Assembly: GCF_000166335.1 (NCBI RefSeq)
Contig: NC_014657.1
Coordinates: 1,656,501-1,720,500, forward strand
Direction of reading: 5' to 3'
Source: Caldicellulosiruptor owensensis OL
GTDB lineage: Bacteria; Bacillota; Thermoanaerobacteria; Caldicellulosiruptorales; Caldicellulosiruptoraceae
DNA: 64,000 bases
Both the position numbers and the translations under genes were made by a program. Of the stretch, positions 1 to 19,158 are shown piece after piece; the first letter of the stretch is position 1; each line of letters opens with the position of its first letter. A model generated the notes under the pieces. It saw only the letters and a list, made by a program, of their open reading frames with translations, had not been told where the DNA came from and made no database searches.

Positions 1-3000
1 GGAATTAAATTTAATAAGTTTTGTCAAAATTGTAGTTTCCCTATACCTTCTTTTGCAAATTTTTGTCCTAACTGTGGCAGCTACATAACAAAATCAAGCG
101 AATATTTTAGAATGGAAGAACTCAAGAAAGTAGCTGTGATGTTTGCCGACGTCTCCGGCTTTACAAAATTTTCTGAAAAGTTATCACCTGACGAAGTTAG
201 AAAGGTGATAAATGAATTTTTTGAGTTTATTTTAAGACCCGTTTACAACTTAAACGGAACAGTAGATAAATTTATAGGTGATTGCGCCCTTATTCTTTTT
301 GGACTAAAAAGTACTCAAATGGATGCTCCACTGAGAAGCGTTCAGTGTGCACTGGAAATGCTAAAGCTCTCAAAAGAATTTTCAAAAACAAAGAATGTTG
401 AGTTATCCCTTTCAATTGGAATAAACTATGGACTTGTTGCAGTGGGTAAAATTGGTGGACTTTTTGAAAAAGACTATACTGTTATGGGTGATGTTGTAAA
501 CACCGCTCAGCGTCTTCAAACAGCAGCACCCCCAGATACTATTTATGTTTCCGAAAGCATTTACAGAGAAACCTACGAAAACATAGAGTATATTGGCCCT
601 ATCGAATTGAATATCAAAAACAAATCACAAATGGTGAGGTGTTATATACCCAAAAATATTAACAAACTAATCGATTACAATAAAGTTGTAGAAACATTAA
701 CAGCTAAATATACAACTAATGTTATAAATAGTATAGTTAACAGAAATTCGGATTTTTTAGTAATGGTTTGTCCTGATGGTTGTGGAAAACGATACGTTTT
801 TCAAAACATAATCTCTCAGTTAGAAAGGAGCAATCTGAGATACTATTTTATAAGTTTACTTAATAATAATTTTTCAAGACCGTTTTACCTGTTATCTCTG
901 CTAATCCTAAAAATCTTGAACGTCAATTTTGAAGATTCTGTGATTTTGAAGAAGAACAGACTTGTATCTTTTTTAGAGTACCTTTTCAAAGAAGATCATA
1001 AAATGATCGAAAAATGTTTCAACTATATTTCTCTTGTTCTTCAACTAGATTTGAATGAAGACTTTAAACAGTTTCTCTCTTATATGACCCAAGAAGACAT
1101 AGAATTCGAAATTTATGAGGCTATTTCATCCTTCCTCAAAAAAGTTTTCGAGTTAGAATTTGCAACAGTGATAATTGACAACATAAATTTTGCAGACAAA
1201 GAATCGTTTGATTTTATTCTCGATTTTTTATCAAAACAACTGCAAAATAAGCCGTTTTTTATCTTCTCGTCAAGCTCAGAAATACACAAGGTTCCAAAAG
1301 AGTTACATCTTAAAATACAAAAACTATCAAATGAAGAAATAAAAACTGCTGTGGAAATTCAATTCAACGCAAAAGACGTTGAAGAGGAGTCTTTAAACGT
1401 GTTTATGAACATCTCTGAAGGAAAATTAGACTATTTCATAGAAATGTTAAAATGGATAGATACAAATAAACTTTTTTCACTTTCAAACGGCATTTTTAAA
1501 ATCAATCTTTCTCAGCAAAATATTGAAAGCATTAGAAGAAACATTATACTTGATAAGCTTTCAAACACTGAGGATGATGTATTAGAATTCTTAAAAATTG
1601 CAGCTGTGTATGGCTACAGATTTAGCAGCAAGGTTGTTTTGAATATTCTTCAGCCTACAATTGAACATTCTACTCTGATTAGCCAAGCGCAAAAATTAAA
1701 TTTAATAAGGTTCATTGACACAATCTACAACTCAAATTTCAGCGATAAAATCTATGAATTTTGTGAACCAGAAATTGTAAAAATTCTTCTTGATTTTATC
1801 CCTCAGCAAACCAAAAAAATGCTCCACCAGAAGATTGCTACCACAATTGAAAAAATGATTTCTCAGGAAGATTTGACCATTTACTACGAAACCCTATATT
1901 ATCATTTCAAGGAAGCAGGGAAAGTTATAAAAGCTGCAAATTATCTTTTTGAGCTGGCAATGCAATACAAAAAGATTCAGCTTGGCAAGTTTGCCGTGGA
2001 ATGGCTCTATAAATTGCTTGATGAGATTAAAGCCGAAAATTCCCTTGATAGCTTTTCTATCTTTGTTTCTACTTTAGAGCAATTGGCAGCTTTAGAAAAA
2101 TCTTTTGGTAACTATGAAAAAGCTTTACAACATTATAGTAAACTTCTCCAGTTTGCTAAAACTGATGAAGAAAAGTTTTTACTTGAAACTGAGATATGTG
2201 AGTGTTTCATCCTTCAAAATAACTTCAAAAAAGCTGAAGATATTTTGAATGAACTCCAAAAAAAGTTATTGCCAAATAACTTTGCAAGAACAAAAATCTT
2301 GTATCTGCAATGTCTTTATAAAAGCTATACAGGAAGTTCTGATCTGCCCATGTTGGTAAGTCAGCTTGAGGCTGTACTGAAAGAAAGTAATAACTTTGAA
2401 GATTTAGCCCAAATTCTAAACATAGTTTCTTACTCCCTTTACACCTTTACCTCTGAGACCAAAAAGGTTATTCTCTATCTTAAAAAAGCTTTAAACTATG
2501 CGAATAAGTCTAAAAACTTGATCTTGAAAGCCAAAATTCTGGTAAACCTTGGCATCTTAAATTATGAAAATGGCAATCCTTCAGAGGCATTGAAATTTTT
2601 AACTGGTGCTTTTGAACTTGCCAAAGTTTTGTCCAACCGTCACCTGCAGTTGATTCTGTTGAATAATATTGGAATTATCTATTATGAAAAAGGACTTTTA
2701 AAAAAGGCTTTAGAATATTTTTCTGAAGCTTTTTCGTATGCCCACGAGTGGAAATTAATATACGAAGAATGTATAACGCTCCAAAATATTGCTGAACTAT
2801 ATCTTGAAAAAGGAAATATTATCGAAAGTTATAACTTCTTTTCACAGAGCTTTGATTTGGCAAATAAATTCAATTTCATATCAGAAAAAGCTCTGTCATT
2901 GATAGGAATGGCAAAAGCAATGCTTGAAAAATCTAATCTATCAGGTGCAGAAGAATATCTGAATGAAGCCTTAAACGCCATGTCAGAGAACAAAGAAAAC

Positions 3001-3411
3001 AGGGTTGAAGTGGAATATTTTTTAGCAAAAACTAAACTGCATCTTCTTCAAAATGACATTGAGCAAGCTGAAATGGTTATAGAACAGGCAATGAAAATGA
3101 CTGAACAACTGAAAAACCCTCTAATCCGTATCAAAACATTTAGAATGTATTCACAGGTGCTCAAGCATAAAAAAGAATTTAAAAAGGCATTGGAAACTCT
3201 TAAAAGGTGTGAGCAACTGGCAAGTCAAACAGGTTCATTTTTAGAGCTTGCAAAGACATATTACGAAATAGCAAATATCCATGCACTTTTGGAAAATAAA
3301 AAAGAATTTGAAGAGAGTATAAAATTAGCTTCCCTGTGGACTGAGAAAATAGATGAAGAATGTTCTTTAAAATTTTTGATTATGTCTCTTTTAAATAAAG
3401 TAAGAGGCTAA
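1..3411 (+). CDS. Zinc-ribbon / class III nucleotidyl cyclase / ATPase-like / TPR protein (5' end outside window)
   Basis: The reading frame is open to the left edge: the 37 codons before the ATG at 112 encode a zinc ribbon (FCQNC ... FCPNCG), so the true start lies upstream. From that ATG, residues ~5-180 form a class III adenylate/guanylate cyclase domain. It has both metal Asp (D13 in FADVSGF, D57 in KFIGD), the base-selecting K53 and D127, and the transition-state N130/R134. An AAA/NACHT-like region follows (~215-560). Its P-loop is poor: CPDGCGKR lacks the leading Gly and the trailing Ser/Thr, and the Walker B reads VIIDNINFAD. Residues ~640-1090 are TPR repeats. The family is a one-component signalling scaffold found in many bacteria. 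The cyclase is probably active. ATP hydrolysis by the middle domain is doubtful, and the ligand is unknown. Confidence 0.85.
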   Translation, partial: GIKFNKFCQNCSFPIPSFANFCPNCGSYITKSSEYFRMEELKKVAVMFADVSGFTKFSEKLSPDEVRKVINEFFEFILRPVYNLNGTVDKFIGDCALILFGLKSTQMDAPLRSVQCALEMLKLSKEFSKTKNVELSLSIGINYGLVAVGKIGGLFEKDYTVMGDVVNTAQRLQTAAPPDTIYVSESIYRETYENIEYIGPIELNIKNKSQMVRCYIPKNINKLIDYNKVVETLTAKYTTNVINSIVNRNSDFLVMVCPDGCGKRYVFQNIISQLERSNLRYYFISLLNNNFSRPFYLLSLLILKILNVNFEDSVILKKNRLVSFLEYLFKEDHKMIEKCFNYISLVLQLDLNEDFKQFLSYMTQEDIEFEIYEAISSFLKKVFELEFATVIIDNINFADKESFDFILDFLSKQLQNKPFFIFSSSSEIHKVPKELHLKIQKLSNEEIKTAVEIQFNAKDVEEESLNVFMNISEGKLDYFIEMLKWIDTNKLFSLSNGIFKINLSQQNIESIRRNIILDKLSNTEDDVLEFLKIAAVYGYRFSSKVVLNILQPTIEHSTLISQAQKLNLIRFIDTIYNSNFSDKIYEFCEPEIVKILLDFIPQQTKKMLHQKIATTIEKMISQEDLTIYYETLYYHFKEAGKVIKAANYLFELAMQYKKIQLGKFAVEWLYKLLDEIKAENSLDSFSIFVSTLEQLAALEKSFGNYEKALQHYSKLLQFAKTDEEKFLLETEICECFILQNNFKKAEDILNELQKKLLPNNFARTKILYLQCLYKSYTGSSDLPMLVSQLEAVLKESNNFEDLAQILNIVSYSLYTFTSETKKVILYLKKALNYANKSKNLILKAKILVNLGILNYENGNPSEALKFLTGAFELAKVLSNRHLQLILLNNIGIIYYEKGLLKKALEYFSEAFSYAHEWKLIYEECITLQNIAELYLEKGNIIESYNFFSQSFDLANKFNFISEKALSLIGMAKAMLEKSNLSGAEEYLNEALNAMSENKENRVEVEYFLAKTKLHLLQNDIEQAEMVIEQAMKMTEQLKNPLIRIKTFRMYSQVLKHKKEFKKALETLKRCEQLASQTGSFLELAKTYYEIANIHALLENKKEFEESIKLASLWTEKIDEECSLKFLIMSLLNKVRG

Positions 3412-3446: not shown

Positions 3447-5450
3447 TTATCTCAATGTAACCTTTTTAACAACCACATCATTAATTTTCTTTTCAAATGC
3501 AGTTGTATATGTTTTACCACCACTTATAATGTCAATGCGTGAGATATTAAAGTTAATTTTTGTTGCTGTTAAATTAGGCTTTAATTTGAATGTTACAGGT
3601 TTTGACAAAACCCTCAAACCATTTGATATTCTTGTTGAGTTATCAACAATAAGCTGCAGTGGAAATGTCACATTTGTATTTAATGTGTCAGTTGGACTCA
3701 TTTCAACATAAATCTTTATTTTTGCAGCAGAATCATAACTGAAAAGACCCATATCATCAATTTTAAGCGACAAATTAGCACTTGAATTATCCGAAATTAT
3801 CTTTTTGGTGATAGAAAAGCTTTTAATCATATTAGTTGCATCAATAACAAAGAAATTAATTGGTGTTAAATTCATTGAATTTGCAGTGCTATTTATGCTA
3901 TATGACAGTACAGGTGTAAATGATATCGTACCTTCACGCAAGAATGTAACCTTGTAATCAATAGTCAAACTTGTCGGTGTTGGGCCTGAATCAACTGCAT
4001 AATTGAACGATGGATTTGTTGTGGTAACTTTTTGTAGAGTAACGTAAGAATTATTAATCGAAAGTGTAAAATTGTTAATAATAGTAGCAACATCAAGCGA
4101 TTTTCCATACGCACTTATCGTAAGCTTTGCATTATAAGGCGTGCTAGGCACAAATATGTTACCACTTCCTATTACTTGGAATGTAGCACTAATTCCAGGC
4201 TGTCTTACAAATTCCACCTGGCCAAGATTAACTTCCAAACTTCCTGTGCTTTCACCATTTACTGTGTCATACCTTCTAAATGTTAATGTAGCCTTCCCAA
4301 GATTATATATTCCTTCTGTGTTTGAAGTTATCTTAAACGAAATCTCCTGGGCAGATGGAGTTCCCCCACCATTCTCAAAGATGACAGGGTTAAATGTTCC
4401 TATTAATTTGCTATTTTCAATTTTCCATCCTGCTGGCATGGAAGTGACTGTTAGCCCTGATGGAATAGGGTATTCAACTGTAAGATTGTCATATGTTACT
4501 GCTAAATTGATTATTTTGAATATATCCTGCAAAATGGAATTCAAAGCATTTGTACTTGAAATATAATATGACTTACCATTTGCAGTGCTTGCCATCAACT
4601 CAATAAAAGTCTTATCTACGTCAGCACCAGTTGTATCAACACCTACAACAAAAAGTTTTGTTCCACTTTGAGAAAGAGATTGCACTGCAGAAAGTGTTTC
4701 TGATTTGGTAGTATTATTCGGCTGCAAACCTGGACCATCTACTAAAGGATATCCATTATGCGTTCCGTTTAAATAAAACGTAGGCATACCGTCAGTAATA
4801 AATATTACATATTTGTCATTACCTGATGGAGAAGCATTAAGTAAATTTTTTGCCTTGTTTAAAGCAGCTTCCATATTTGTTCCGCCAGAAGCATTCATAT
4901 TGTCAATCAAGTTTTTAGCAGAATTTATAGCTGAAGTATTTGTTAAATCTAAAAGGCTGCTTGTGCAAGTATTGGGCAATGAATACGGTCCATATATGGT
5001 TGACGAATTTCCCTTTTGCCAACTTCCGTTTTGCAGATAAAATCCTTTAACGTAAAAATTTGAATTATCATTTACAAAAGTATCAAAATCTACAATGCCA
5101 AGTTTATCACCACTTTTTGCTGAGTTTTTAAAACTGTCAATAAGATTTTTGGCAGCATTCTTTGCAGCAGTCATCTTACTGCTTGCGCTCATAGAACCTG
5201 AAGAGTCAATGACAAGGACAACAGAAACAGGCGACCTTGAAACATTAATTGACCCTGCGGGTGTAAGTTTGAGCTTTACTTCAATGTCGTTTCCAATATA
5301 GCTCTTACTTTTTACAGGTCCTCCACTTAAGCTGATACTTACCGAAGATGTATCTCCAGCTTTTGCCTTTGGTGAAAAGTAAGCCAAGCCCCCTATTACT
5401 GTCATTACAATCAATAAAATACTAAACCACGACAAAAATCTTCTTTTCAC
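3447..5450 (-). CDS. Secreted von Willebrand factor A domain protein, candidate pilus-tip adhesin
   Basis: The start is GTG with a strong AGGAGGG site. An N-terminal signal peptide (hydrophobic ~10-25, AKA-type cleavage near residue 31) is followed by a vWA domain at ~77-315. It carries a complete MIDAS: D82-S84-S86 in IDSSGSM, T191 in GGTN and D220 in FITDG. The remaining ~350 residues look like beta-sandwich repeats. No LPXTG motif or C-terminal anchor is visible. It lies directly downstream of the type IV pilus genes but has its own promoter. In other pilus systems PilY1-like or vWA minor subunits sit at the tip and bind surfaces or metals; that role here is inference from position and MIDAS. 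A free secreted adhesin is the alternative. Confidence 0.8.
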   Translation of the reverse strand: MKRRFLSWFSILLIVMTVIGGLAYFSPKAKAGDTSSVSISLSGGPVKSKSYIGNDIEVKLKLTPAGSINVSRSPVSVVLVIDSSGSMSASSKMTAAKNAAKNLIDSFKNSAKSGDKLGIVDFDTFVNDNSNFYVKGFYLQNGSWQKGNSSTIYGPYSLPNTCTSSLLDLTNTSAINSAKNLIDNMNASGGTNMEAALNKAKNLLNASPSGNDKYVIFITDGMPTFYLNGTHNGYPLVDGPGLQPNNTTKSETLSAVQSLSQSGTKLFVVGVDTTGADVDKTFIELMASTANGKSYYISSTNALNSILQDIFKIINLAVTYDNLTVEYPIPSGLTVTSMPAGWKIENSKLIGTFNPVIFENGGGTPSAQEISFKITSNTEGIYNLGKATLTFRRYDTVNGESTGSLEVNLGQVEFVRQPGISATFQVIGSGNIFVPSTPYNAKLTISAYGKSLDVATIINNFTLSINNSYVTLQKVTTTNPSFNYAVDSGPTPTSLTIDYKVTFLREGTISFTPVLSYSINSTANSMNLTPINFFVIDATNMIKSFSITKKIISDNSSANLSLKIDDMGLFSYDSAAKIKIYVEMSPTDTLNTNVTFPLQLIVDNSTRISNGLRVLSKPVTFKLKPNLTATKINFNISRIDIISGGKTYTTAFEKKINDVVVKKVTLR

Positions 5451-5536
5451 TTTAATCCCTCCTTTTTCTCACAATACAAACACTTAATTTGAACCCATAA
5501 AATCCTATTCTAAATTTCAAATATCCTCTAATTTAA

Positions 5537-5565
5537 ATTATACCACTTTCATCAATCACTAACAA
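5537..5565 (-). promoter_or_regulatory. Sigma-A promoter for the vWA gene
   Basis: On the minus strand TTGTTA (5560-5565), a 17-bp spacer and TATAAT (5537-5542) lie about 90 bp before the GTG start. The -35 box is inside the end of the upstream PilX-like gene, so the vWA gene can be expressed separately from the pilus operon. Confidence 0.65.
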
Positions 5566-8254
5566 CCTGTCTTTTACTTTTTATTTTAATATTTGTTTTT
5601 ACTGTGGTCTCATAAAATGTGGTAACAAACGGTATTTCTATGATGTCATTGGTATCAATCCCTTTTATGAAGAAATTATAAAGCTGTCCTAACCTGTCTG
5701 AGATGCTGCTAAAGTTTGCATAATTAAAATAATACATAAGCTGACTTGATACACCTCGACTATATTCAATTTTCAGATTACCATTTCCAGCTACTACTAT
5801 ATCACCTCCTGCTATTATATTGCCTTTAAGAGTTTTTTCTGTTGTACTACTGTTTTTCAGAACAATGCTGCCTTTCGAAACAATCAAAACATTCTCTATA
5901 TTTCCAAGCGGAACCCCGTTCCAGCTGGGTAGACCAAAGTCAATTTCTTCTACATCACTTTTGCTAATCACTATCAGGTTCTTATCATCATTGATTACAA
6001 GTCTGTCAGATGAAAGCTGGTCAAAATCGACAAAATCTGTCAAATCAAACTTATCTCTGGTTGTATCTAACAATCCCTTGTCAACAAGATTGAGCTCTTT
6101 GAAAAACTGCTCCACAGTTGGGTCAATCACGTTATCAATAACTGCCGCCCTCAAAGATTCAGAAGATGAAATTGTAACACCTAAGTTTACAAATTCACCT
6201 GAACCTCCAGGTACAGTCCCAATGGTAGAATTAATTGTACTTTCGTTCAAAATGTTAAGGACTCTCCTTGCCAAATAAAGCTTTCCATTTGCATTTAGAA
6301 AATAATGAAAGTAACTTGTGTCATAGGGATTGGATGGATTAAAGTTTACGCTTCCTCCACCAACACTTATATTTGACGCTCCCATATTATATGGCGTATC
6401 AAAATCATCAGGGTCTTTTACATGTGCTGTAAGGTAATGCAGAACAAAGTTTATTGCTCTCTCTACATTTGAAATTGTATTAGTCCCCACAGTGTCAACA
6501 TCCATATCATATAGTTTTATATCAACTTCCTCGATTGGACTTACTTTAACTTTAAATGGCTTAAAATAATCCGGTGCAAACAAATCTGCAGTCGTAAAAC
6601 TACCAATACTTCCATTTAATCCAAGTGTATTCAGAAGGTCGGTCAAGTCAGCCGAAGGAAGATTAAAATATTGATAGATAGTAAAATTTGGTACTAAAGA
6701 AGAACTTTCAGGCATTCTAAAAAGCTTATCTTTGCCATGCTCATCAATTCTGTGAATTTCATCTACATATGCAACACCCATAAGTACAATGTTTCTACCT
6801 ATTGATAATTTTGCTGTATCTTCGTTAATAACTATGGAAGAGCTGCTATTATAATTGTATGGAGTATCTCCTGTACCAAGTCCAATCAGCGAACCTGAGA
6901 TATTGATATTGCTGTTCTGTGCGTACATTGATACGTTATCCATTATATATGCATTTTTGTTTATAGTTATCGCTGAACTGTCAGCAGTATTTTCTGTAAC
7001 AATGCTATGGCAATATACCTCATCTGTGACTGTAACTTGGGAATTTGGCGCACATGTTTTTATAAATCCACCGTAAAGTGCATATTTATCTCTCAAACCA
7101 TTTATTGTTGGAGGAAGATTAGGATTAGAATCAGTATAGCCTACAAAAACCGGTGCATTTTCAATTCTTATATTTCCACTTTTTATGCCTGAACTTCCTA
7201 TAATGCTCTCTATTCTACTCTTTACTGCAGAATCAATGGGATTTACCCTTGCACTTGACGCCAAATTATCAAGCTGTGTCTGGGTGATACCAGCTAAAAT
7301 TCCACCAAAGTACTCAGAAGGTTTTGAATACCTTACATCATTTGCTGTTCCCCTTACATATACCTTGCCACCTTTTATACTAAATAAATTCGAATCGTTA
7401 ATAACAATGAGATTTCTTCCAGCAAAAAGAGTATAGTCAAGTATGTGATTAAAACTCCTTTTTATAGTCCTTGTTGTGAAATTTAAATCACTACTTTTGT
7501 AAGGAAAAATGCTAAAATCTACTCTCAAAACTCTTTTGGTCTTTTCTTTTAAAAGATTGACAACGACTTCCATTTTTACATCAATTGGGTTTTCTATCTC
7601 AGAGCTTGACATATGCAGGTTCATATCTACAGCTGGATTAAATTTTATTTCAATGTCGACATCAGGATTGTTAAAATCAACCATTTTCATAAAAGAATAT
7701 AGGTCATTAGAAGTTCCTCTCCAATTGTCAATCGTATAAGTTACACCTGATACAGTAAATTCAATTGCTGGTCTTTCGCTTGGTAAGCCCGATGCTGTAA
7801 AAAAATTGTTCATGTATTCTTTGAACTTTTCTAAGAATTTTTCTTTGACCTTCTTTTGATAATCATGATTGATTGCAGCAACTGCATTGTCATAGTCGGT
7901 TTTTGATATCATTCCATTCATATACTGAACATAATACTGGTTTTCCCTTTCCTGATAGTCTCTTAGAATGTCTGCAATATCAGGATTTTGGGTATTGAGA
8001 ACGCCACTTTCTATAAAAACATAATTGTCAGCCATTTTTCGTGCTTTGTCTGCAACCATATCAAGATAGTAAACCATTCTTTCAAAAGCACTCTCAGCGT
8101 CGTAATATGCTCTGTTCTTTGCATAGTACCCCTTGCTAATTTTGAGTGACGACATCGCAGCTTCAATCAATGCAACCGACATCACAAACATCACTGCTAT
8201 GAAAATTATCGTAAGAACCAGAGTCGAACCTTTATGCTTACTTTTAATTCCCAT
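5552..8254 (-). CDS. Very large PilX-like type IV pilus assembly protein
   Basis: The N-terminus has a short basic leader KSKHKG followed by STLVLTI and a long hydrophobic helix, then AYYDAESAFERM; this is the pattern of PilX-type minor prepilins. Position +5 after the presumed cleavage Gly is Leu, not the usual Glu, as occurs in some PilX/GspK-like proteins. At 900 residues it is several times longer than ordinary PilX. Most of the length is a beta-rich, polar region with recurring segments such as SSSIVINEDTAKLSIGRN, suggesting a beta-helix or adhesin-like ectodomain. It is the last gene of the main operon, 1 nt after the preceding prepilin gene. The role is probably as a pilus-priming or surface-exposed minor subunit; the ectodomain function is unknown. 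Confidence 0.7.
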   Translation of the reverse strand: MGIKSKHKGSTLVLTIIFIAVMFVMSVALIEAAMSSLKISKGYYAKNRAYYDAESAFERMVYYLDMVADKARKMADNYVFIESGVLNTQNPDIADILRDYQERENQYYVQYMNGMISKTDYDNAVAAINHDYQKKVKEKFLEKFKEYMNNFFTASGLPSERPAIEFTVSGVTYTIDNWRGTSNDLYSFMKMVDFNNPDVDIEIKFNPAVDMNLHMSSSEIENPIDVKMEVVVNLLKEKTKRVLRVDFSIFPYKSSDLNFTTRTIKRSFNHILDYTLFAGRNLIVINDSNLFSIKGGKVYVRGTANDVRYSKPSEYFGGILAGITQTQLDNLASSARVNPIDSAVKSRIESIIGSSGIKSGNIRIENAPVFVGYTDSNPNLPPTINGLRDKYALYGGFIKTCAPNSQVTVTDEVYCHSIVTENTADSSAITINKNAYIMDNVSMYAQNSNINISGSLIGLGTGDTPYNYNSSSSIVINEDTAKLSIGRNIVLMGVAYVDEIHRIDEHGKDKLFRMPESSSLVPNFTIYQYFNLPSADLTDLLNTLGLNGSIGSFTTADLFAPDYFKPFKVKVSPIEEVDIKLYDMDVDTVGTNTISNVERAINFVLHYLTAHVKDPDDFDTPYNMGASNISVGGGSVNFNPSNPYDTSYFHYFLNANGKLYLARRVLNILNESTINSTIGTVPGGSGEFVNLGVTISSSESLRAAVIDNVIDPTVEQFFKELNLVDKGLLDTTRDKFDLTDFVDFDQLSSDRLVINDDKNLIVISKSDVEEIDFGLPSWNGVPLGNIENVLIVSKGSIVLKNSSTTEKTLKGNIIAGGDIVVAGNGNLKIEYSRGVSSQLMYYFNYANFSSISDRLGQLYNFFIKGIDTNDIIEIPFVTTFYETTVKTNIKIKSKRQVVSD

Positions 8255-8255
8255 A

Positions 8256-9056
8256 TCATTTCACCCTATATGAATAATAGGTTGTATAATCTTTCACAAA
8301 TTGTCCTTTAGGATCATATATTTTAAGACAAACTCTCCTGACTTTCTCTTCCCCTGTGAGAATAGCTTGCCTTGGAGAATTATCATAAACTATGAATGGG
8401 GTTGTAGCTATAATTTTTATGTTGTTATTGACATTTGTTAGCCACAAATTGAACATGGTAGTCGTAAGTTTGTTTGAAAGATCATAAACACCATCAATTA
8501 TAACATGAAGATAATGTGATGAAGTATGTGAAACAAACTCAGCACCAAGCTTTGCAGGGTTTGCAGCCCCACCACTTATAAAAGTTGCGATTGTTGCATT
8601 GTTTAGGATAAAGGTATAAGTAGCTTTTTTTCCTACTTCGTCATATCTTATTTCGATTTTGAGCTTGTCATATGAACTTGAAGATATATTTCTTTCATAA
8701 GGAGTATGGGTAGTCAGATCTTCTATTGTTAACTTTCCTGCTGAATCAAGGAACATCCTAAAATCAATCTGGCTATTTTCAATATTTTGAATAGTTCCTA
8801 TTTTAAAAGAATCATCTACATCATAGTTTACAGTATATCCATTTATGTTCATACTTCCTGTCCCATAAACATTTTGATACACAAGAGTCTCAACAGCCTG
8901 GTTGATGACCTCAGCAATTTCAAGGTTTGTTTTTGCACTCATGTTCACTTTGAGAGATTGCTGAATAAGTAGCACAATAGGGGTGACAAGCAGAGCAAAT
9001 ATTGCCACTGTCACAATAACCTCAACAAGGGTATACCCTTTAAAAGTTTTTCTCAT
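8256..9056 (-). CDS. Type IV minor prepilin (PilV/PilW-like)
   Basis: The class III signal is MRKTFKG|YTLVEV with Glu at +5 and a hydrophobic helix to ~30. I prefer the ATG at 9056 over the GTG at 9068 because GGGGTGG lies 8 nt upstream of the ATG and the leader then has the standard short length (266 residues). The C-terminal ~220 residues are beta-rich with no recognised domain. The long globular part and the position next to PilO and the PilX-like gene fit a minor pilin of the priming complex. PilD in the same operon would process it. Confidence 0.75.
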   Translation of the reverse strand: MRKTFKGYTLVEVIVTVAIFALLVTPIVLLIQQSLKVNMSAKTNLEIAEVINQAVETLVYQNVYGTGSMNINGYTVNYDVDDSFKIGTIQNIENSQIDFRMFLDSAGKLTIEDLTTHTPYERNISSSSYDKLKIEIRYDEVGKKATYTFILNNATIATFISGGAANPAKLGAEFVSHTSSHYLHVIIDGVYDLSNKLTTTMFNLWLTNVNNNIKIIATTPFIVYDNSPRQAILTGEEKVRRVCLKIYDPKGQFVKDYTTYYSYRVK

Positions 9057-9074
9057 CTTGCTCGCCACCCCACA

Positions 9075-10337
9075 TCATTTTCTTGTTACATTGACTCTTG
9101 AACCGTTTGTTACAATGTTAACTCTTGGTTTTTGCTTATCATCGTTAGATATATAAACCTTAATCGGTTTGTCAGAATTGTTGGTTATCTTAAGTGTCAC
9201 CACGTTATCATCGTCTTTATATTTTCTTGGACTTGAAAAAACAACAATTAAAATCTGACTACTGCTTTGAAAATTTAGCTGGTCAAAACTATTGCCCTGT
9301 GGATAAACACTTGCTTCAGTACCCATTTTGTAGTAATACTTGTCTCCCTTTTTTTCAATAGTTATATATGCATTTTCGTTTTTCTTTTTTGCTCCAAAAA
9401 TTGAACCTTTCCCGCTTTTTTCGATAGTTATATTTGTAGTCGGAGAATACAACGTTGATACTGTAACAACAAAATCAGCCTTTGTATAGTCAACCTTCTC
9501 CTCTGACAATTGAGTTTGTTGCTGCTCTGTCTTATTTGAATTAGGCTTGTTGGAAGAAATATTGGCAGATGTTTGTGGTAAAGTTGTTTGCTGCTCGGAA
9601 TTAGTTACAGATGAATTATCTGTTCTTTCTACTTTTACTGTGGGCTGTGGCGCTGGCTCATTTTTTTTTAAGTCCTCTGGAGTATAACTAAACTCCACCT
9701 TTTGCCCAGCTCCTCCGCTGAACAAGTCACCCTTGCCAGAGGGGATTGAAAAATTTTGCCACAGTCTCATAGGTGCGAGGCTATCTTCGTATCCATAAAA
9801 TCTTATCTCAAAGCTCGCTGTAATCATATTATTGCTTCCACTTGATAAAGAAATCGTATCAAGAGAATACAAAGGCGAAAAATCTTTTTGCAGGAATAAA
9901 AGCTTTTTAAAGTTTGCATATGTCATCTGCCAGTTCTGTTTAGATGAATAAAAATATGCTTTTACAATATTTACATTGTTATAATTCACATTCATATTTT
10001 GTTTTTGTGAAAAGGTAAAATCTGAAGTCTTGCTTCCCACCATTTGAGCAAGTCTTTGAAGGTCAAGCATTGAAAATTTTTCGTCTTGATTTGGAGGGAT
10101 TTTTTGGCTGATTATCGTGTAGTCTTTCTCTATTTCTTCAAGCTTTGCTTTTTGTGCATTGTACAGTGCAATTTTTTGCTCTATTTCACTGAGCCTATTT
10201 TCCAATTGTTGCTTTTCAGAAAGTAAACTGCTCAATTTTTGAGAATATGGACTATAGAAAAAATTGTAAAACAGAAACCCTAAAAGCACCATACCAAGAA
10301 TTAACAAAAGCTTTTTATCTCTCTCTGTAATTTGCAC
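9075..10337 (-). CDS. pilO: PilO-like inner-membrane pilus assembly protein with C-terminal extension
   Basis: It starts at GTG. A single N-terminal membrane segment (~9-27) is followed by a coiled coil (~33-75) and a ferredoxin-like region, the PilO/GspM architecture. It follows pilM and pilN, which gives the standard alignment-complex order. At 420 residues it is about twice the usual PilO. A low-complexity Q/S/N/T linker (~225-285) leads to a second beta domain (~290-420) with ITIEKSGKGSIFG, ITIEKKGDKYYYK and a C-terminal VTRK. In a cell without an outer membrane that extra domain may reach the wall; this is inference. Confidence 0.75.
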   Translation of the reverse strand: MQITERDKKLLLILGMVLLGFLFYNFFYSPYSQKLSSLLSEKQQLENRLSEIEQKIALYNAQKAKLEEIEKDYTIISQKIPPNQDEKFSMLDLQRLAQMVGSKTSDFTFSQKQNMNVNYNNVNIVKAYFYSSKQNWQMTYANFKKLLFLQKDFSPLYSLDTISLSSGSNNMITASFEIRFYGYEDSLAPMRLWQNFSIPSGKGDLFSGGAGQKVEFSYTPEDLKKNEPAPQPTVKVERTDNSSVTNSEQQTTLPQTSANISSNKPNSNKTEQQQTQLSEEKVDYTKADFVVTVSTLYSPTTNITIEKSGKGSIFGAKKKNENAYITIEKKGDKYYYKMGTEASVYPQGNSFDQLNFQSSSQILIVVFSSPRKYKDDDNVVTLKITNNSDKPIKVYISNDDKQKPRVNIVTNGSRVNVTRK

Positions 10338-10343
10338 TTTTGC

Positions 10344-10883
10344 TCACTTCCTTGCTATATCTGCAGATATTGTTGACATTTTCGAATTCTCATCTCCAGT
10401 TACACTGCTAAAACTAACGTTTGTAAAGTAACCACTTGTCTGAAGGTTGTAGACAAACTGTGTAACTGTTTCAAGCTTATCGGCTCTTACGGTACACGTT
10501 ACTTTTTCAGTTGAAAGGTTCAAACTCTCAAATTTTAGATTTGACGGAGTTAAAGATTCAAGCTTGTCTAAAATCTCTAAAAATTTTATATGTCCACTTG
10601 ATATATATTCAAGCAAAGCTTTTTTTTGAGTATACAATATTTTCTTTTCGACAAGCTTCTGTGCTTCATCCATCTGCTGCTGTTTTATTGTTATCTCATT
10701 ATTTAATCTTCTAATATCATTGTTCGTAGTCATTATTCTGGTTAAAAAAATCGACCCAATTAAAGCAAACACACAGATTTCTAATATGAGCAACAAAAAA
10801 TAAATTCTTAATGTTGCATCTTTCTTCTTTATCCCTCTTTCATAAGCCAATAACAGGTTTATATCTTTAAGATTTTTTGCCAT
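10344..10883 (-). CDS. pilN: PilN-like pilus assembly protein
   Basis: It begins MAKNLKDINLLLAYERGIKK, with the INLL segment that PilN uses to contact PilM. One membrane helix (~27-48), a coiled coil (~52-90) and a small C-terminal alpha/beta domain follow. The length of 179 residues is normal. It lies 35 bp after pilM and 6 bp before pilO. PilN anchors the cytoplasmic PilM ring to the membrane PilN/PilO complex. Confidence 0.85.
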   Translation of the reverse strand: MAKNLKDINLLLAYERGIKKKDATLRIYFLLLILEICVFALIGSIFLTRIMTTNNDIRRLNNEITIKQQQMDEAQKLVEKKILYTQKKALLEYISSGHIKFLEILDKLESLTPSNLKFESLNLSTEKVTCTVRADKLETVTQFVYNLQTSGYFTNVSFSSVTGDENSKMSTISADIARK

Positions 10884-10918
10884 TATTACCTCTCCTTAGA
10901 ATTTTAAAAACTAAGAAA

Positions 10919-11884
10919 CTAAATAAGTCCACTTATAGTTGTGGAATAATTACAAACTTCACTCTTTGTGAGTATTATCTTCTTATTGATTGACTGCAGT
11001 TCGGTTAACAAAATTATCTCAGCATTTATCTTTGTTCGCAAAACATCACTTATATCTATATGCTGGCAAACCTCACCCATAAGATATACTTTTGATAGAC
11101 TCTTGCTATCCTGTTCTCTACTTTTATAAAACTCATAGAATTTTGAAATGTTTTCAACAATCTCATTAACAGTATAGGTATAGAAATATTCTATGTAAGC
11201 TTCAGTACCTTCTTCTTCACTAAACATTCTTTCTAAATCATAATTAGGAAACGTTTTGGAAAGAACAATTTCATCTTCGTTGAGTATCACAACAGTTATA
11301 TAAGATCTTACAATGTTTACAATCATTATAAGCTCTTTATCCTCATCTTTTCTGACCCTTCTTTCTAAAGCTACAAGTTTAGATATTGTATTTGGCTCAA
11401 TATCAATTTTCTTAACCTTTAAACCAAGCCTTTTCGTAACTGTTACTATATCTTCGACAAAGCTTTTAGGAAGAGCCACGAGCAAAATTTTTTGTTTTTT
11501 TGTTTTTCCTTCATTAAACACCTTCAGCTGTTTATAATCAATAACATAATTTTCAATGCTTGTCGGAAAGTACTGTTTTGCTTCAAATGTAATAAGATTA
11601 AACGTCTTGTCTTCATTGAGGTACGGCACTACTAATTCTCTGATAATCATGTTAGAAATACCCGACAAAACAAAAGTTATATTATTTTTGGGAAAATTAT
11701 TCTTCAAAAAGATATTGCCCAGTGTTTCATAAAAAAGATTTGGTTCAAGTTTCATGTCATTTATGATGACATTATCTTTTAGCTGCTCTTCAGCAAATTT
11801 ATTTATATGAATACTTCCTGAAAAATTTCCTTCAGCAACCTTTATGTAGTTTTTCCCAAGTTCTATAGCTACTTTTGTGCTCAT
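10919..11884 (-). CDS. pilM: PilM, actin-like pilus assembly ATPase
   Basis: The N-terminus VAIELGKNYIKVAEG is the phosphate-1 type start of the PilM/FtsA actin-like fold. Later segments DYKQLKV and KIDIEPNTISKL fit the family. At 321 residues it is slightly short of typical PilM (~350). It is cytoplasmic with no membrane segment and precedes pilN. It binds PilN's N-terminal INLL motif and links the assembly ATPases to the membrane complex. Confidence 0.85.
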   Translation of the reverse strand: MSTKVAIELGKNYIKVAEGNFSGSIHINKFAEEQLKDNVIINDMKLEPNLFYETLGNIFLKNNFPKNNITFVLSGISNMIIRELVVPYLNEDKTFNLITFEAKQYFPTSIENYVIDYKQLKVFNEGKTKKQKILLVALPKSFVEDIVTVTKRLGLKVKKIDIEPNTISKLVALERRVRKDEDKELIMIVNIVRSYITVVILNEDEIVLSKTFPNYDLERMFSEEEGTEAYIEYFYTYTVNEIVENISKFYEFYKSREQDSKSLSKVYLMGEVCQHIDISDVLRTKINAEIILLTELQSINKKIILTKSEVCNYSTTISGLI

Positions 11885-11914
11885 ATTCTTCTTAAACCCC
11901 TCAAAATAGAATTT

Positions 11915-12415
11915 TTACCAGTCATATCGTCTATTATAAACAACCTTGTAAGTCCTTGTTTGACCACGAACACCTAAGTCTACCGTGTACTGAATGATTA
12001 TTTGAGGCGGATTGTCTGTTACAGTAAAATTAACTACTTTCCCTTTTAAATACCATACAGTTGAGCTATTTGACCCCATCCTTTTTTCTATCGTAATTTT
12101 CTTTTCACTTGATTCGTAACCAATTAAATACTCAACACCATTTGGATAACTTGTTTGGTCCTCATAAACTATCATATAAACTTTCCCTGAAAGAGGATAA
12201 TAAGCAATGCTTTGCTGGTCTGCCATCTGTAGCCACTGCTTTATACTATCTTGAAGCCTCTTTGCCTGGGATTCAATATTTGCAATTTGAGCCTGTTGCT
12301 GTACCACCTTAAAGTTATTCATAAAAAAGCTGTACAGAGCAACAATGATTATTCCAACAATTGCAACAACAGCTATTATCTCAACAAGTGTAAAACCTTT
12401 TAAACTTTTCCTCAT
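11915..12415 (-). CDS. Type IV prepilin-like protein
   Basis: The leader MRKSLKG|FTLVEI has Glu at +5 and a hydrophobic helix to ~32. The remaining ~130 residues are beta-rich and end RRYDW. Its ATG overlaps the stop of the upstream prepilin gene (ATGA), indicating translational coupling. It is probably a minor pilin (GspJ/PilW-like). Confidence 0.8.
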   Translation of the reverse strand: MRKSLKGFTLVEIIAVVAIVGIIIVALYSFFMNNFKVVQQQAQIANIESQAKRLQDSIKQWLQMADQQSIAYYPLSGKVYMIVYEDQTSYPNGVEYLIGYESSEKKITIEKRMGSNSSTVWYLKGKVVNFTVTDNPPQIIIQYTVDLGVRGQTRTYKVVYNRRYDW

Positions 12416-13017
12416 TGCACTTCAACGCTCCCCGGTGGTACGCTGTTAAGTATTATCACCTTTTTGTAGTTAGAACCAGATAGTGGAACTACTTCAATTT
12501 TGTTTTGTGCTGAAAATACGTAAGTGTTACCTCTTGCCAGTACAGAACCTGTAAATCTTAAAATTTCCCCATTTGGTTTAAATGTAATGTACGTTGCAAC
12601 AGCACCTGCACTGTTCATCAATATTGATGAGCTCGCTGCGTTTTGAAGTTTTACTATTTTTGACTTTATCTCTTTTAACACAATTTCGTTTGGAGTAGAA
12701 CTTGCATCGAATTTTATAAGCTGGATTTTTAAAGAGGTTTCACCTGTTACAGGGTCAGGAATGTAGTAGTTGTCAATTCTTATGTAATACTTTGAAATAT
12801 GCCCACCTGTTGATGAAGTTGAGGTATCATATTCCATTTCAGAATCAATCTTTTCATAAAGTTCTCTTATCATTGCAGCAAACTGGGTTGCCACGCTGTT
12901 TACATCAGCTCTTTTCTTCATTGCTATATAATTGGGAACAGCGATTGCCAAAAGAATTGCCAAAATCGCCAAAACAATTGCTATTTCTTGCAGGGTAAAG
13001 CCTTTAAACCTTTTCAT
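12412..13017 (-). CDS. Type IV prepilin-like protein
   Basis: The leader MKRFKG|FTLQEI has Glu at +5. The helix ILAILLAIAVPNYIAMKKRA continues with the AVPNY pattern usual in type IV pilins and pseudopilins. A 150-residue beta-rich head follows. It overlaps the next prepilin gene by 4 bp. It is probably a minor pilin (GspH/FimT-like). Confidence 0.8.
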   Translation of the reverse strand: MKRFKGFTLQEIAIVLAILAILLAIAVPNYIAMKKRADVNSVATQFAAMIRELYEKIDSEMEYDTSTSSTGGHISKYYIRIDNYYIPDPVTGETSLKIQLIKFDASSTPNEIVLKEIKSKIVKLQNAASSSILMNSAGAVATYITFKPNGEILRFTGSVLARGNTYVFSAQNKIEVVPLSGSNYKKVIILNSVPPGSVEVQ

Positions 13018-13044
13018 CTTATCCCTCTTCTATTCCTAAAAGCT

Positions 13045-13317
13045 TTAATCATGTTTTGGATTGTTTTTTACAATGAAAGCAGCTGCTGCAATTGCAGCTA
13101 TGATATCAACATAAAACTGATCCTGAAGTTCACTCATTTTTTCGAAAAGTTCTCCTTCTTTTGTTACAAAATACCTCGGGGGTAATCTGTTAAGAGCAAG
13201 TGCCAGAATATCAAGCTTGCATTTTGGACATTTGCAAACATCAATGTTTTCAAGAACTTTATCAATCATGTTCCCTACTGCTTCTTCCATATAGTTTCTT
13301 ATTGTGTACACCATCAT
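13045..13317 (-). CDS. comFB: ComFB family protein (candidate cyclic-dinucleotide receptor)
   Basis: The 90-residue protein has the ComFB signature: an N-terminal helix NYMEEAV, Cys28-X-Cys30-X2-Cys33, and the ALNRLPPRY segment. It is cytoplasmic. In Bacillus subtilis comFB lies in the late competence comF operon. In cyanobacteria ComFB-type proteins have been reported to bind c-di-AMP/c-di-GMP and to affect pili and competence. Here it sits inside the pilus operon between pilD and the minor prepilins, so a role in regulating the pilus by a second messenger is plausible. Binding in this protein is inference. Confidence 0.8.
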   Translation of the reverse strand: MMVYTIRNYMEEAVGNMIDKVLENIDVCKCPKCKLDILALALNRLPPRYFVTKEGELFEKMSELQDQFYVDIIAAIAAAAFIVKNNPKHD

Positions 13318-13346
13318 TTCCCCCTTTGGTTTTGTTACAGCTATTT

Positions 13347-14105
13347 TTAACTTCTTAAATAATTAAAATACAATTGCAAAATTCCGTCTCCATAAATCAT
13401 AGTAATGAAAAGTGCTACTGCTATGTATGGTCCAAATGGAACTTCACTTTTCATATTCTTGTTTTTCAATATCATCATCAACACTGCAAAAACTGCACCA
13501 AAAATAAAAGCAAGAAAATTTGCCAAAATAGCTTGAGCTGCTGTAAATCCCGCGCCACCTGCTGCAATTAAAAGCACATCTCCAAACCCCATTGCTCTGC
13601 CTTTAGATAGAATATAAATTATCAAAATTAAGAGCATTGAAAAAAACATTCCCAAAAAAATACTTAGTACAGTGTTAAATGTTGCTCCCTTTTCCAAAAA
13701 TATCTGAGCGCATCTTGCTATAAAAAGTAACAAAATACTTGCTGTTGAAATCTCCATTGTATCAATGTCTACCATTGAAATATAAAGTAATATACAAAAG
13801 ATAGCAAATGAAATAAACATCTGTGCTGAAATACCATATCTTAAATAACACAAAAACCCACCTGATGCTGTTAAAGTCTCAACAATAGGATACCTTATAG
13901 AAATTTTATGTCCACAGTACCTGCACTTTCCTTTCAAAAAGATATAACTTAAAACAGGTATCAAATCACACCATTTTAATTTTTTATTACAATTAGGGCA
14001 GTGGCTCGGGGGGAACACAATCGACTCCCCCCGAGGAATTCTATAAATACATACATTCAGGAAGCTGCCAAGGGTGAAAAATAGAACAATTAATACTGCT
14101 AACAT
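13347..14105 (-). CDS. pilD: Prepilin peptidase / N-methyltransferase PilD
   Basis: It is an integral membrane aspartic protease of family A24. The N-terminal methyltransferase half has FLNVCIYRIPRGESI and a CPNC ... CRYC zinc site. About six to eight hydrophobic helices follow. The two catalytic Asp are in MVDIDTMEIST and GFGDVLL; the second motif has VLL where VKL is usual. Length 252 is normal. It cleaves the Gly before FTLxE in the six class III leaders encoded around it and methylates the new N-terminus. Confidence 0.9.
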   Translation of the reverse strand: MLAVLIVLFFTLGSFLNVCIYRIPRGESIVFPPSHCPNCNKKLKWCDLIPVLSYIFLKGKCRYCGHKISIRYPIVETLTASGGFLCYLRYGISAQMFISFAIFCILLYISMVDIDTMEISTASILLLFIARCAQIFLEKGATFNTVLSIFLGMFFSMLLILIIYILSKGRAMGFGDVLLIAAGGAGFTAAQAILANFLAFIFGAVFAVLMMILKNKNMKSEVPFGPYIAVALFITMIYGDGILQLYFNYLRS

Positions 14106-14140
14106 ACTACCCTATTATTTTTTAAATTAAAACCTAAATA

Positions 14141-14599
14141 TTATTTATACTTCCAGTATGGATTAGAATCTTGTTGAGGACTAACTTCTGGAAACAACCA
14201 CCATGTAGTCGCATTATTCGCTCCCGTATTTACACCAACATACACTTCTTCAGAAGTTGTATTAGCTGTAACACGCCACTCCCAATTACTATTAAATCTA
14301 ATCTTTGGAATTCCTCCATTTATTCGCTGCTCAACATAGCTTTTAAGATTATTATCGCTAGATATTGAAGCATCATTTAAATTCACATTGCCTCCGTCTG
14401 CCATATATTGCTGGATTTGTGTTGCAATTGCTTTTGCTGAACTTAAATCCGCTGTAACTTTTGATTTATTTATCAACCTCAATACCTGCGGAACTGCTAT
14501 CGCTATCAAAACTGCGATTATTGCCATTACAACTACCATCTCAATCAATGTAAAACCTTTATTCTTCTTGTTTACCTGCGTTACAAGCCATTTCATCAT
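14141..14599 (-). CDS. pilA: Type IV pilin, candidate major subunit
   Basis: A longer basic leader ends NKKNKG|FTLIEM (Glu at +5), and the helix ends AVPQVLRLINKSK. A small head (~110 residues) with ATTWWLFPEV near the C-terminus follows. An AGGAGG site precedes the double ATG by 11 nt. It is paired with a second short pilin whose helix ends ATPQVLRVVQNAQ. Their small size and location just after pilC make these two the best candidates for the major pilin; which of the two is major cannot be told from sequence. Confidence 0.8.
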   Translation of the reverse strand: MMKWLVTQVNKKNKGFTLIEMVVVMAIIAVLIAIAVPQVLRLINKSKVTADLSSAKAIATQIQQYMADGGNVNLNDASISSDNNLKSYVEQRINGGIPKIRFNSNWEWRVTANTTSEEVYVGVNTGANNATTWWLFPEVSPQQDSNPYWKYK

Positions 14600-14621
14600 C
14601 TCAAAACCAACCTCCTATTTT

Positions 14622-15044
14622 TTATTTATAATTTTGATCAAACTCAGGGAAAAGTTCCCACTGATTTGAGTCATCCCCCGCATAAATTTTAAGAACGGAT
14701 GACTCATACTTGTAATAAAAGTAATAGCTTTTATTCAACCTTGGCCTTGGCAGGCTTCCTGTTAAGTACTTGCTCAATTTAAAACCCAATAGCCCTCCAA
14801 TCTGGTCTGAGTCAATCTTATGCAGGTTAGAATCAGGTATAATCTCGTCCAAACTTTTTCCGCTCTCTTCCTGCCATATCAAAAACGCATACGCAATGTG
14901 TCGTGCTGTATTTGAATCTGCTTTTTTTTGAGCATTTTGAACTACTCTTAAAACTTGCGGTGTTGCAATTGCTACTACTACTCCGATTATAGCAATCACA
15001 ACAATAAGCTCAATTAATGTGAAACCATAAATCTTTTTTTTCAT
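14622..15044 (-). CDS. Type IV pilin, second short pilin
   Basis: MKKKIYG|FTLIEL is a classic class III leader with Glu at +5, followed by VVIAIIGVVVAIATPQ. The head is ~105 residues and ends WELFPEFDQNYK, resembling the end of the neighbouring pilin (WWLFPEV ... YWKYK). The two genes therefore look like an old tandem duplication. It is located 15 bp after pilC. Confidence 0.8.
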   Translation of the reverse strand: MKKKIYGFTLIELIVVIAIIGVVVAIATPQVLRVVQNAQKKADSNTARHIAYAFLIWQEESGKSLDEIIPDSNLHKIDSDQIGGLLGFKLSKYLTGSLPRPRLNKSYYFYYKYESSVLKIYAGDDSNQWELFPEFDQNYK

Positions 15045-15059
15045 AAGCCACCGCCCTTT

Positions 15060-16271
15060 TTATGTGCCGATGCTGCCATAGAGTTTGAACATCGGCATAA
15101 TAATTGACGCAAGCAAAAATCCAACCATTAAAGCCAATAGCACAATCATAACAGGCTCAAACAGTGATGTAAGCCTTGTAACCTGATTCTCAACCTCATT
15201 TTCGTAATAATCTGCAGCCTTTTCAAGCATGTACTCAAGCTGTCCTGTCTCTTCACCTGTCTTTAACATTATGTTCATCAGTCTCGGAAAAATCCCCATA
15301 TCCTCAATCGGATAACTTAACCCCTCACCACCTTTCACTCTTTCTATCACCCTGTCAAACTCCTTTTCTATATAGGCATTCGACAGGATATTTTTAGTTG
15401 TATCCAAAGCCGTTATCAAGGAAACACCAGCATTCAAAAGGGTTGCCAGCGTCCTTGTAAAACGGCTGGTTACCTGACCTAATGCAAGTTTGCCTATCAC
15501 CGGAATTTTGATTTTTATTTTTCCTACCAAAATTCCACCAGTCGGAGTTGATTTAAATATTTTATACCCGAAAATAAGAGCAATTATACCAAACAAAAGG
15601 TAAATGCCATTGTACTGCATAAATTTGCTTGAATTTATCACAAACCTTGTTGTTGCAGGAAGTTCAACCTGTAATTCTTCAAACAACCCTACAAAAGTTG
15701 GAATAACATATGTCAGAAGAATTATTAAAACAATCACAGCAACACCTATGACAATTGCAGGATACATAAGAGCATTTACTATCTTTTGCCTGAGTTTTAA
15801 CTCTTTTTCAAAATGGACTGCCATTTTATCCATTGATTTATCAATAGAACCTGCAACCTCTCCAGCCTCAATCATATTTACAAGAATTGGCGGGAAAAAC
15901 CTTGGATGTTCTCTCATAGCTGCCGATAAAAGAGTTCCTCTTTCTACTTTTTCGTAAAGGTCATCTATAACCTTTCCAAATGATCTCCCTTTATACTGCT
16001 GTTTTAAAACATCTAAACAACTTAAAATTGAAATACCAGCAGAAAGCATTGTTGCAAACTGTCTGCAAAAAATTGAAAGGTCTTTTACTGTTGCTTTATT
16101 GCCAAAAGGTAGTTTTATTTCTTTGTGAAGTGCTTTTTTTTCTTTTATCTCAATAACAAACACATTCCTGGCCTTCAAAATCTCAATTGCTGTCTTTTCA
16201 TCTTCAGCTATAATGGTACCATTAACTTTCTTGCCTGAAGAATCCATTGCACTGTATACATACTCTGCCAT
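15060..16271 (-). CDS. pilC: PilC/GspF inner-membrane platform protein
   Basis: 403 residues with two GspF domains (~70-195 and ~270-395) and three membrane helices (~170-195, ~220-240, ~375-395). Family motifs are visible: FCRQFATMLSAGIS, the PPILVNMIEAGE repeat and its partner FPRLMNIMLKTGEETG. It is the membrane platform that couples PilB and PilT to pilin addition and removal. It lies 18 bp after pilT in the pilB-pilT-pilC order. Confidence 0.93.
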   Translation of the reverse strand: MAEYVYSAMDSSGKKVNGTIIAEDEKTAIEILKARNVFVIEIKEKKALHKEIKLPFGNKATVKDLSIFCRQFATMLSAGISILSCLDVLKQQYKGRSFGKVIDDLYEKVERGTLLSAAMREHPRFFPPILVNMIEAGEVAGSIDKSMDKMAVHFEKELKLRQKIVNALMYPAIVIGVAVIVLIILLTYVIPTFVGLFEELQVELPATTRFVINSSKFMQYNGIYLLFGIIALIFGYKIFKSTPTGGILVGKIKIKIPVIGKLALGQVTSRFTRTLATLLNAGVSLITALDTTKNILSNAYIEKEFDRVIERVKGGEGLSYPIEDMGIFPRLMNIMLKTGEETGQLEYMLEKAADYYENEVENQVTRLTSLFEPVMIVLLALMVGFLLASIIMPMFKLYGSIGT

Positions 16272-16289
16272 CTCAGCAATTCAACCCCT

Positions 16290-17345: not shown

Positions 17346-17410
17346 TTAGGCTTTTCCTCCTTCCTCTATCCTCTACTTTTTGTCATCTCCAACCCCTCGA
17401 ACACTTAAGC

Positions 17411-19108: not shown

Positions 19109-19158
19109 CTGAATTCACCCTCTTTTAGTCTTTACCATTTTTTAACCTTCTTTAAAAC

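Follow-up and report, generated by a model that had tools for sequence, protein, structure and literature searches.

Within the window, the whole 64,000-nucleotide stretch of Caldicellulosiruptor owensensis DNA that was analysed, the ORF at positions 3447–5450 (minus strand) encodes a secreted vWA protein of 667 aa, as read from the ORF list, Pfam and a predicted model. The start codon is GTG, a strong ribosome-binding site (AGGAGGG) lies at 5457–5463 (−), and the gene is single copy in the 2,428,903-bp genome. Residues 1–31 (5358–5450, −) form a Sec-type signal peptide, MKRRFLSWFSILLIVMTVIGGLAYFSPKAKA|GDTSS, which was judged by eye; an A-x-A or V-x-A cleavage site was found in the same way in all four vWA orthologues. 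The vWA domain (residues 75–315; 4506–5228, −) was assigned by Pfam (VWA_2, 8.2e-15; VWA, 8.8e-14) and by the predicted model. Its MIDAS is made up of the DxSxS motif at residues 82–86 (D82-x-S84-x-S86; 5193–5207, −), Thr191 (4878–4880, −) and Asp220 (4791–4793, −), and these five residues are complete in 12 of 12 aligned vWA units of the family, this protein included. Behind it follow a beta domain common to other pilus-operon proteins (residues 318–411; 4218–4499, −; profile searches) and a beta-rich C-terminal region (residues 420–667; 3450–4193, −; low-confidence model and alignment), which by alignment is related to the C-terminus of the Caloramator protein. The protein ends in VKKVTLR (3450–3470, −), a KKxxLR tail recognised by a motif count over ORF ends. 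The signal peptide and complete MIDAS of the original prediction were thereby confirmed, as was the lack of a sortase or membrane anchor, since no lipobox, LPxTG or C-terminal hydrophobic stretch was seen by eye. The long beta tail that it described is indeed beta-rich, with confident modelling confined to residues 36–420 (good apart from some loops) and no confident model for 440–667.

The vWA gene lies just behind the PilX-like gene, as had been noted: a PilX_N gene (5552–8254, −) precedes it across a 101-bp gap and is the last gene of a type IV pilus (T4P) operon that also contains PilM, PilN and PilO-like genes (Pfam). The rest of this operon (8256–19108, −) encodes pilins and PilO-like, PilN, PilM, PilD, PilC, PilT and PilB proteins. 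Several of these names were given by eye; Pfam was used for the five genes scanned up to PilM, and covered two N_methyl pilins and the pilin at 14141.

The 900-aa PilX-like protein, with its PilX_N N-terminus and beta-helix, is a tapirin relative. The NCBIfam tapirin model matched residues 3–301 (E 1.1e-16), at a score below the cut-off of that model (60.3 versus 600 bits; 779.5 bits for the control tapirin L042), and profile–profile comparison with tapirin gave an alignment over the 87 N-terminal columns (E 1.8e-19). The protein was modelled poorly as a whole (mean pLDDT 48.4), its beta-helix core being confident. By using this model, tapirin 4wa0 was obtained as the sole Foldseek match at E 0.001 or less, and VIA-align gave Z 17.5, 17.0 and 16.9 for three solved tapirins, followed by the Thermus competence pilin ComZ at Z 8.3; the tapirin beta-helix fold is thus present in the 900-aa pilin, on a model of low mean confidence. 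The pilin and the tapirins of Caldicellulosiruptor are alike in operon place, PilX-type N-terminus and beta-helix (Z ∼17); they differ in size (900 aa versus about 640–710 aa) and in that the former is one gene and the latter usually a gene pair. ComZ, a tip pilin with a beta-solenoid according to excerpts of PMC8179133, resembles the 900-aa pilin in carrying a beta-helical insert in a minor pilin, but matches it much more weakly than the tapirins do. Glu at mature position 5 is absent in 23 of 23 PilX/tapirin proteins inspected, the 900-aa pilin among them, and present in all five other window pilins checked; excerpts of PMC9934059 give its absence as a mark of the tip-capping K subunit. Given this kinship with tapirins, attachment to plant matter would fall more directly to the 900-aa pilin, and the suggestion that the vWA protein might mediate attachment to the substrate was changed to that extent.

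Whole-model Foldseek matches of the vWA protein were headed by SpaC, together with a Catenulispora vWA protein, Mfa5 and PitA; RrgA, inter-alpha-inhibitor and integrin beta stood further down the list. With VIA-align the Catenulispora protein came first (Z 25.2), SpaC scored Z 22.8 and Streptococcus sanguinis PilB Z 21.6 over residues 70–397. The model thus has a fold seen in pilus tip adhesins, in line with the role proposed originally; vWA folds are widespread, so the matches show type only and not function. No tip-pilin family beyond those named came up in VIA-align for the models, which is no evidence of absence.

Three known types of adhesin were considered. The sortase-pilus tip proteins SpaC, RrgA, PitA and GBS104 and the type V tip protein Mfa5 carry a vWA domain in a beta-sandwich, as the 667-aa protein does, and SpaC was matched by sequence as well (E 2.7e-6). 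Unlike SpaC and RrgA, the 667-aa protein has no LPxTG and no sortase pilus and is encoded in a type IV pilus operon; an adhesin of their type was rejected on the C-terminus (...KKVTLR), in which no LPxTG-type sorting signal was seen by eye. S. sanguinis PilB is similar in belonging to a monoderm type IV pilus and in its vWA domain with MIDAS, and according to excerpts of PMC8179133 it demonstrates that vWA modules of T4P can act as adhesins. PilB is, however, a pilin and bears a class III leader; the 667-aa protein carries a Sec-type signal peptide and lacks a pilin module, and a modular pilin of PilB type was rejected on this N-terminus and the lack of an N_methyl match. PilC/PilY1 proteins (T4P_PilY1, PF05567) are Sec-secreted non-pilins encoded with minor pilins of PilX type, some with a vWA domain, as described in part in excerpts of PMC8179133. 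The 667-aa protein is likewise a secreted non-pilin encoded with minor pilins (signal peptide by eye, gene order). All PilC/PilY1 proteins carry a C-terminal propeller according to the same excerpts (PMC8179133), and in place of the PF05567 propeller the 667-aa protein has the beta domain and the C-terminal tail. Membership was therefore rejected (no Pfam match to the propeller at E 0.1 or better), and the label PilY1-like in the original prediction was dropped. A PF05567 search of 149 genomes detected 0 of 14 controls, so it shows no absence.

A promoter-like site, TTGTTA-17-TATAAT, is found at 5537–5565 (−), with TTGTTA at 5565–5560, a 17-bp spacer and TATAAT at 5542–5537; the extended −10, GTGGTATAA, occupies 5538–5546, and the −35 falls inside the 3′ end of the PilX coding sequence. 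Such sites numbered 93 in 16 kb and 64 in shuffled sequence, and a match by itself therefore carries little weight. Within the 101-bp gap no run invariant across four species is longer than GTGGTATAA (9 columns), a length reached in 27 of 20,000 column shuffles; this conservation of the extended −10 supports a promoter of its own for the vWA gene. Of the four species, the most distantly related one carries TATAAA in place of TATAAT. Outside the genus the vWA gene lies 11–15 bp behind the preceding pilus gene in Caloramator, Clostridium homopropionicum and C. punense and, as called, overlaps it in Tepidibacter, so the promoter is a local trait. The site that had been predicted is thus present, with its extended −10 conserved in four species, and separate promotion as a general trait was not supported.

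Twelve Caldicellulosiruptor genomes were surveyed. The vWA gene was found in four of them (the own genome and G001, G005 and G003, at 88, 80 and 69% identity), as was the full-length 900-aa gene. In the remaining eight the same slot holds one or two proteins of about 640–710 aa, the second of the two being broken in G009; partial matches to the 900-aa gene, nearly all N-terminal, were obtained in seven of these genomes and none in G006. Two slot proteins were tested for tapirin identity by sequence: that of G002 matched tapirins 6n2b and 4wa0, and that of G006, by its sequence C. hydrothermalis or very near to it, matched tapirin 6n2c over 602 residues. When the four vWA genomes were searched with a tapirin profile, no other tapirin was found; the matches were all to parts of the 900-aa protein, almost without exception at its N-terminus.

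Trees of ten flanking genes and of seven pilus genes were compared; G008, the flanks of which did not match, was excluded from both. The four vWA-type genomes form one clade in the pilus-gene tree (100/100) and are scattered in the flank tree, where the own genome pairs with tapirin-type G010 (94/100) and G003 with tapirin-type G011 (100/99); a single clade of vWA-type genomes on the flanks was rejected (AU p 0.0021). As indicated by these trees, the whole pilus operon is moved between species as a block. The exchanged block (5552–22230 in the window; L030–L043, L243–L253) includes the receiver-domain gene upstream of PilB, ahead of the operon (19159–22230, −), and the exchange site is one chromosomal position adjoining aroE. 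Co-occurrence with the 900-aa gene, which had been proposed as a check, was found within the genus (vWA gene in 4/4 genomes with it and 0/8 without); since the operon is exchanged as one unit, this amounts to one event, so that it gives no independent evidence and, taken alone, can prove little.

The pilus operon is present without the vWA gene in 8 of the 12 genomes, so the vWA protein is not needed for the pilus as such. The same count bears on an alternative in which the protein is an assembly or control factor (priming of assembly, control of retraction, sensing of surface contact) and an adhesin only secondarily or not at all. A vWA domain with MIDAS encoded in a pilus operon would suit such a factor, and Pseudomonas PilY1 combines such roles, in part priming pilus assembly, governing retraction or sensing surface contact; eight genomes without the gene argue that the protein is no general assembly factor, and we consider this explanation improbable.

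Outside the genus, genome contigs were scanned with a vWA alignment; at least 93 relatives were found and 80 loci kept. In at least five of these, found by vWA sequence alone and including the two best matches by E-value, the vWA gene comes after the PilX-like gene within a T4P operon: immediately in Caloramator quimbayensis, with one extra pilin-like gene between the two in Clostridium homopropionicum, C. punense and Tepidibacter mesophilus, and with two other genes between them in Clostridiales DTU069. A sixth genome outside the genus, G042, came from a genome search and has the order PilX, pilin, vWA. Locus L174, in which the PilX gene is about 7.5 kb away, was not counted. The vWA units of the six genomes are just 22–40% identical. 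Exchange of the block as a unit, and hence a single event behind the co-occurrence in the genus, would fit an unrelated secreted vWA gene that came by chance to the edge of the block; recurrence of the same order in six genomes with units so far diverged makes such a hitchhiker very improbable. Judged by gene order, the pilus link of the vWA protein, as claimed in the original prediction, is real. The arrangement is uncommon, since a vWA neighbour was found in none of 52 PilX stretches taken from 51 other genomes in a sample of 398 from the phylum, several of these stretches ending at contig ends; G042 was obtained separately and lies outside the 52.

Other secreted proteins are found in the same slot. 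A strict pairing of the vWA protein with the 900-aa pilin was rejected on a sister-genus genome, G012, in which a secreted DUF5057/Big protein occupies the vWA slot behind a homologue of the pilin (42% over its length, BLAST). Slot proteins of further pilus operons include two large secreted proteins in G383 and one with DUF5057 in G419. Large secreted DUF5057 proteins lie near or directly behind PilX-like genes in the T4P operons of three genomes (L239:6633–12461, −; L241:7946–11299, −; L077:12897–17762, +); no function is given for DUF5057 in Pfam. A T4P operon of G166, a genome from the same phylum, encodes a pilin whose C-terminal domain is a vWA (L242:7781–9148, +); this is the architecture of S. 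sanguinis PilB in another clostridial lineage, and by its predicted domains a head of this kind is also delivered as a modular pilin.

Behind each vWA domain of the pilus-linked group lies the beta domain of ∼99 aa. In nine leave-one-out tests the left-out members were recovered with E-values of at most 3.2e-10, and non-members reached 0.0015 at best. The domain is present in 12 proteins of the examined loci: ten T4P-linked vWA proteins, a Petrocella vWA protein and a G383 protein of 1942 aa with PA14 and DUF5057 and no vWA, encoded in a pilus operon behind PilX. With the beta-domain profile 7 of 398 genomes were positive; six matches were strong and all in pilus operons, and the seventh (G321) was weak (2.6e-4) and away from pilus genes. 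Of the six strong matches, four had contributed to the profile and the other two are near-copies; the search therefore adds that nothing else in the sample matches well. A longer vWA-unit profile gave a vWA match in 63 of the 398 genomes and the full unit in only five, which are seed members or a near-copy. The vWA protein might instead be a surface adhesin, free or associated with the wall, or a biofilm protein, co-expressed with the pilus and no part of it; this would agree with the conserved promoter, with a Sec signal in place of a pilin leader and with the Petrocella relative, which adjoins an SLH-like gene (SLH by eye) and has no pilus gene in its 20-kb locus. We regard it as unlikely, because in the 398 genomes the beta domain occurs almost exclusively in pilus operons, the vWA gene is so closely spaced to pilus genes in Caloramator, C. 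homopropionicum and C. punense, and no wall anchor was seen.

KKxxLR stands at the extreme C-terminus of 5 of 1865 distinct ORF ends, all of them slot proteins: three distinct Caldicellulosiruptor vWA proteins, that of Caloramator and the DUF5057 protein of G012, which has no detected domain in common with the others. LPxLD-like ends were found on six distinct proteins, five of which are slot proteins; both patterns were defined after inspection and then counted. That the KKxxLR tail is common to slot proteins with unrelated domains hints at docking. One C-terminal domain for all slot proteins was not supported: the two groups do not align, and leave-one-out tests recovered one of five well (G383, 5e-7) and a second at E 3.3, with three not recovered; only the short tail is in common. 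The type of PilX C-terminus (RQ[VLI]... versus W[EK]...; L040, L043 and L132 versus L075, L145, L150 and L152) parallels the type of slot-protein tail (KKxxLR versus LPxLD-like), a parallel that may be phylogeny alone.

Taken on sequence, the secreted vWA family is real, recurrent and pilus-linked, and its members are most likely non-pilin tip adhesins. For the protein studied here the explanation that we favour, and hold to be somewhat better than evenly likely, is a non-pilin, Sec-secreted adhesin subunit at the T4P tip, docked on the tapirin-like tip pilin. The secretion signal, the vWA domain with MIDAS, the fold class, the place behind a PilX/tapirin-type pilin and the tapirin kinship of that pilin were computed. 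The protein would be exported by its Sec signal peptide as a vWA head with intact metal site in a beta-sandwich, followed by a beta-rich stalk. We infer that it is then added to the pilus tip, where its C-terminal end would probably dock on a complex of minor pilins with the tapirin-like 900-aa pilin, the product of the preceding gene, as cap; adhesion, with a substrate or a partner as the putative ligand, would be the function of the vWA protein. A tip adhesin is favoured by a partner pilin that is a tapirin relative without Glu5, like tip-capping K subunits, and by the recurrent gene order, the beta domain, the tip-adhesin folds, the KKxxLR tail and the fused vWA of G166. Evidence on the other side comprises the 0 of 52 PilX stretches, the Petrocella locus without a pilus gene, the distance of two genes in DTU069, the widespread fold, the unmodelled residues 440–667, the post hoc tail pattern and the lack of support for a common C-terminal domain.

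By analogy of role, the vWA protein would correspond in monoderms to PilC/PilY1, with a different carrier region. Excerpts of a 2023 paper on the best-studied monoderm T4P (PMC9934059) state that monoderms lack the non-pilin adhesin PilC/PilY1, and according to excerpts of PMC6916266 they also lack late-stage diderm components; this gap would be filled, on another carrier, by a Sec-secreted vWA protein that recurs as a partner in the pilus operons of clostridia. No literature report of a pilus-linked secreted vWA family was found by title and abstract, with mention in subscription papers possible. More tentatively, and with rather less than an even chance, clostridial T4P may generally carry non-pilin tip subunits that are PilC/PilY1 in role and of separate origin, with exchangeable heads and a common docking end. 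The heads would be vWA, PA14, DUF5057 and NPCBM, and the docking end a short C-terminal strand, read by the tapirin/ComZ-type tip pilin of the adjoining gene, of KKxxLR type in Caldicellulosiruptor, the sister genus and Caloramator and of LPxLD-like type in the Clostridium group; the tip module would move between species with the whole operon. Close relatives in Caldicellulosiruptor carry two natural candidate tip modules at one chromosomal site, a tapirin pair or a tapirin-like pilin plus vWA protein, which makes tip-module function directly testable. C. owensensis is described as a biofilm former, yet pure culture without carrier was washed out (PMC9933333); the passages on this link no gene to either behaviour.

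Two further genes were noted beside these loci. A Guanylate_cyc-TPR protein of 1099 aa (112–3411, +; Pfam) is encoded convergently with the vWA gene; its gene is present in G000, G001 and G005, and not in G003 or the tapirin-type loci searched. In G008 a secreted GH10-CBM3-GH5 enzyme of 1737 aa is encoded directly behind the tapirin-like gene (L039:1989–7202, −).
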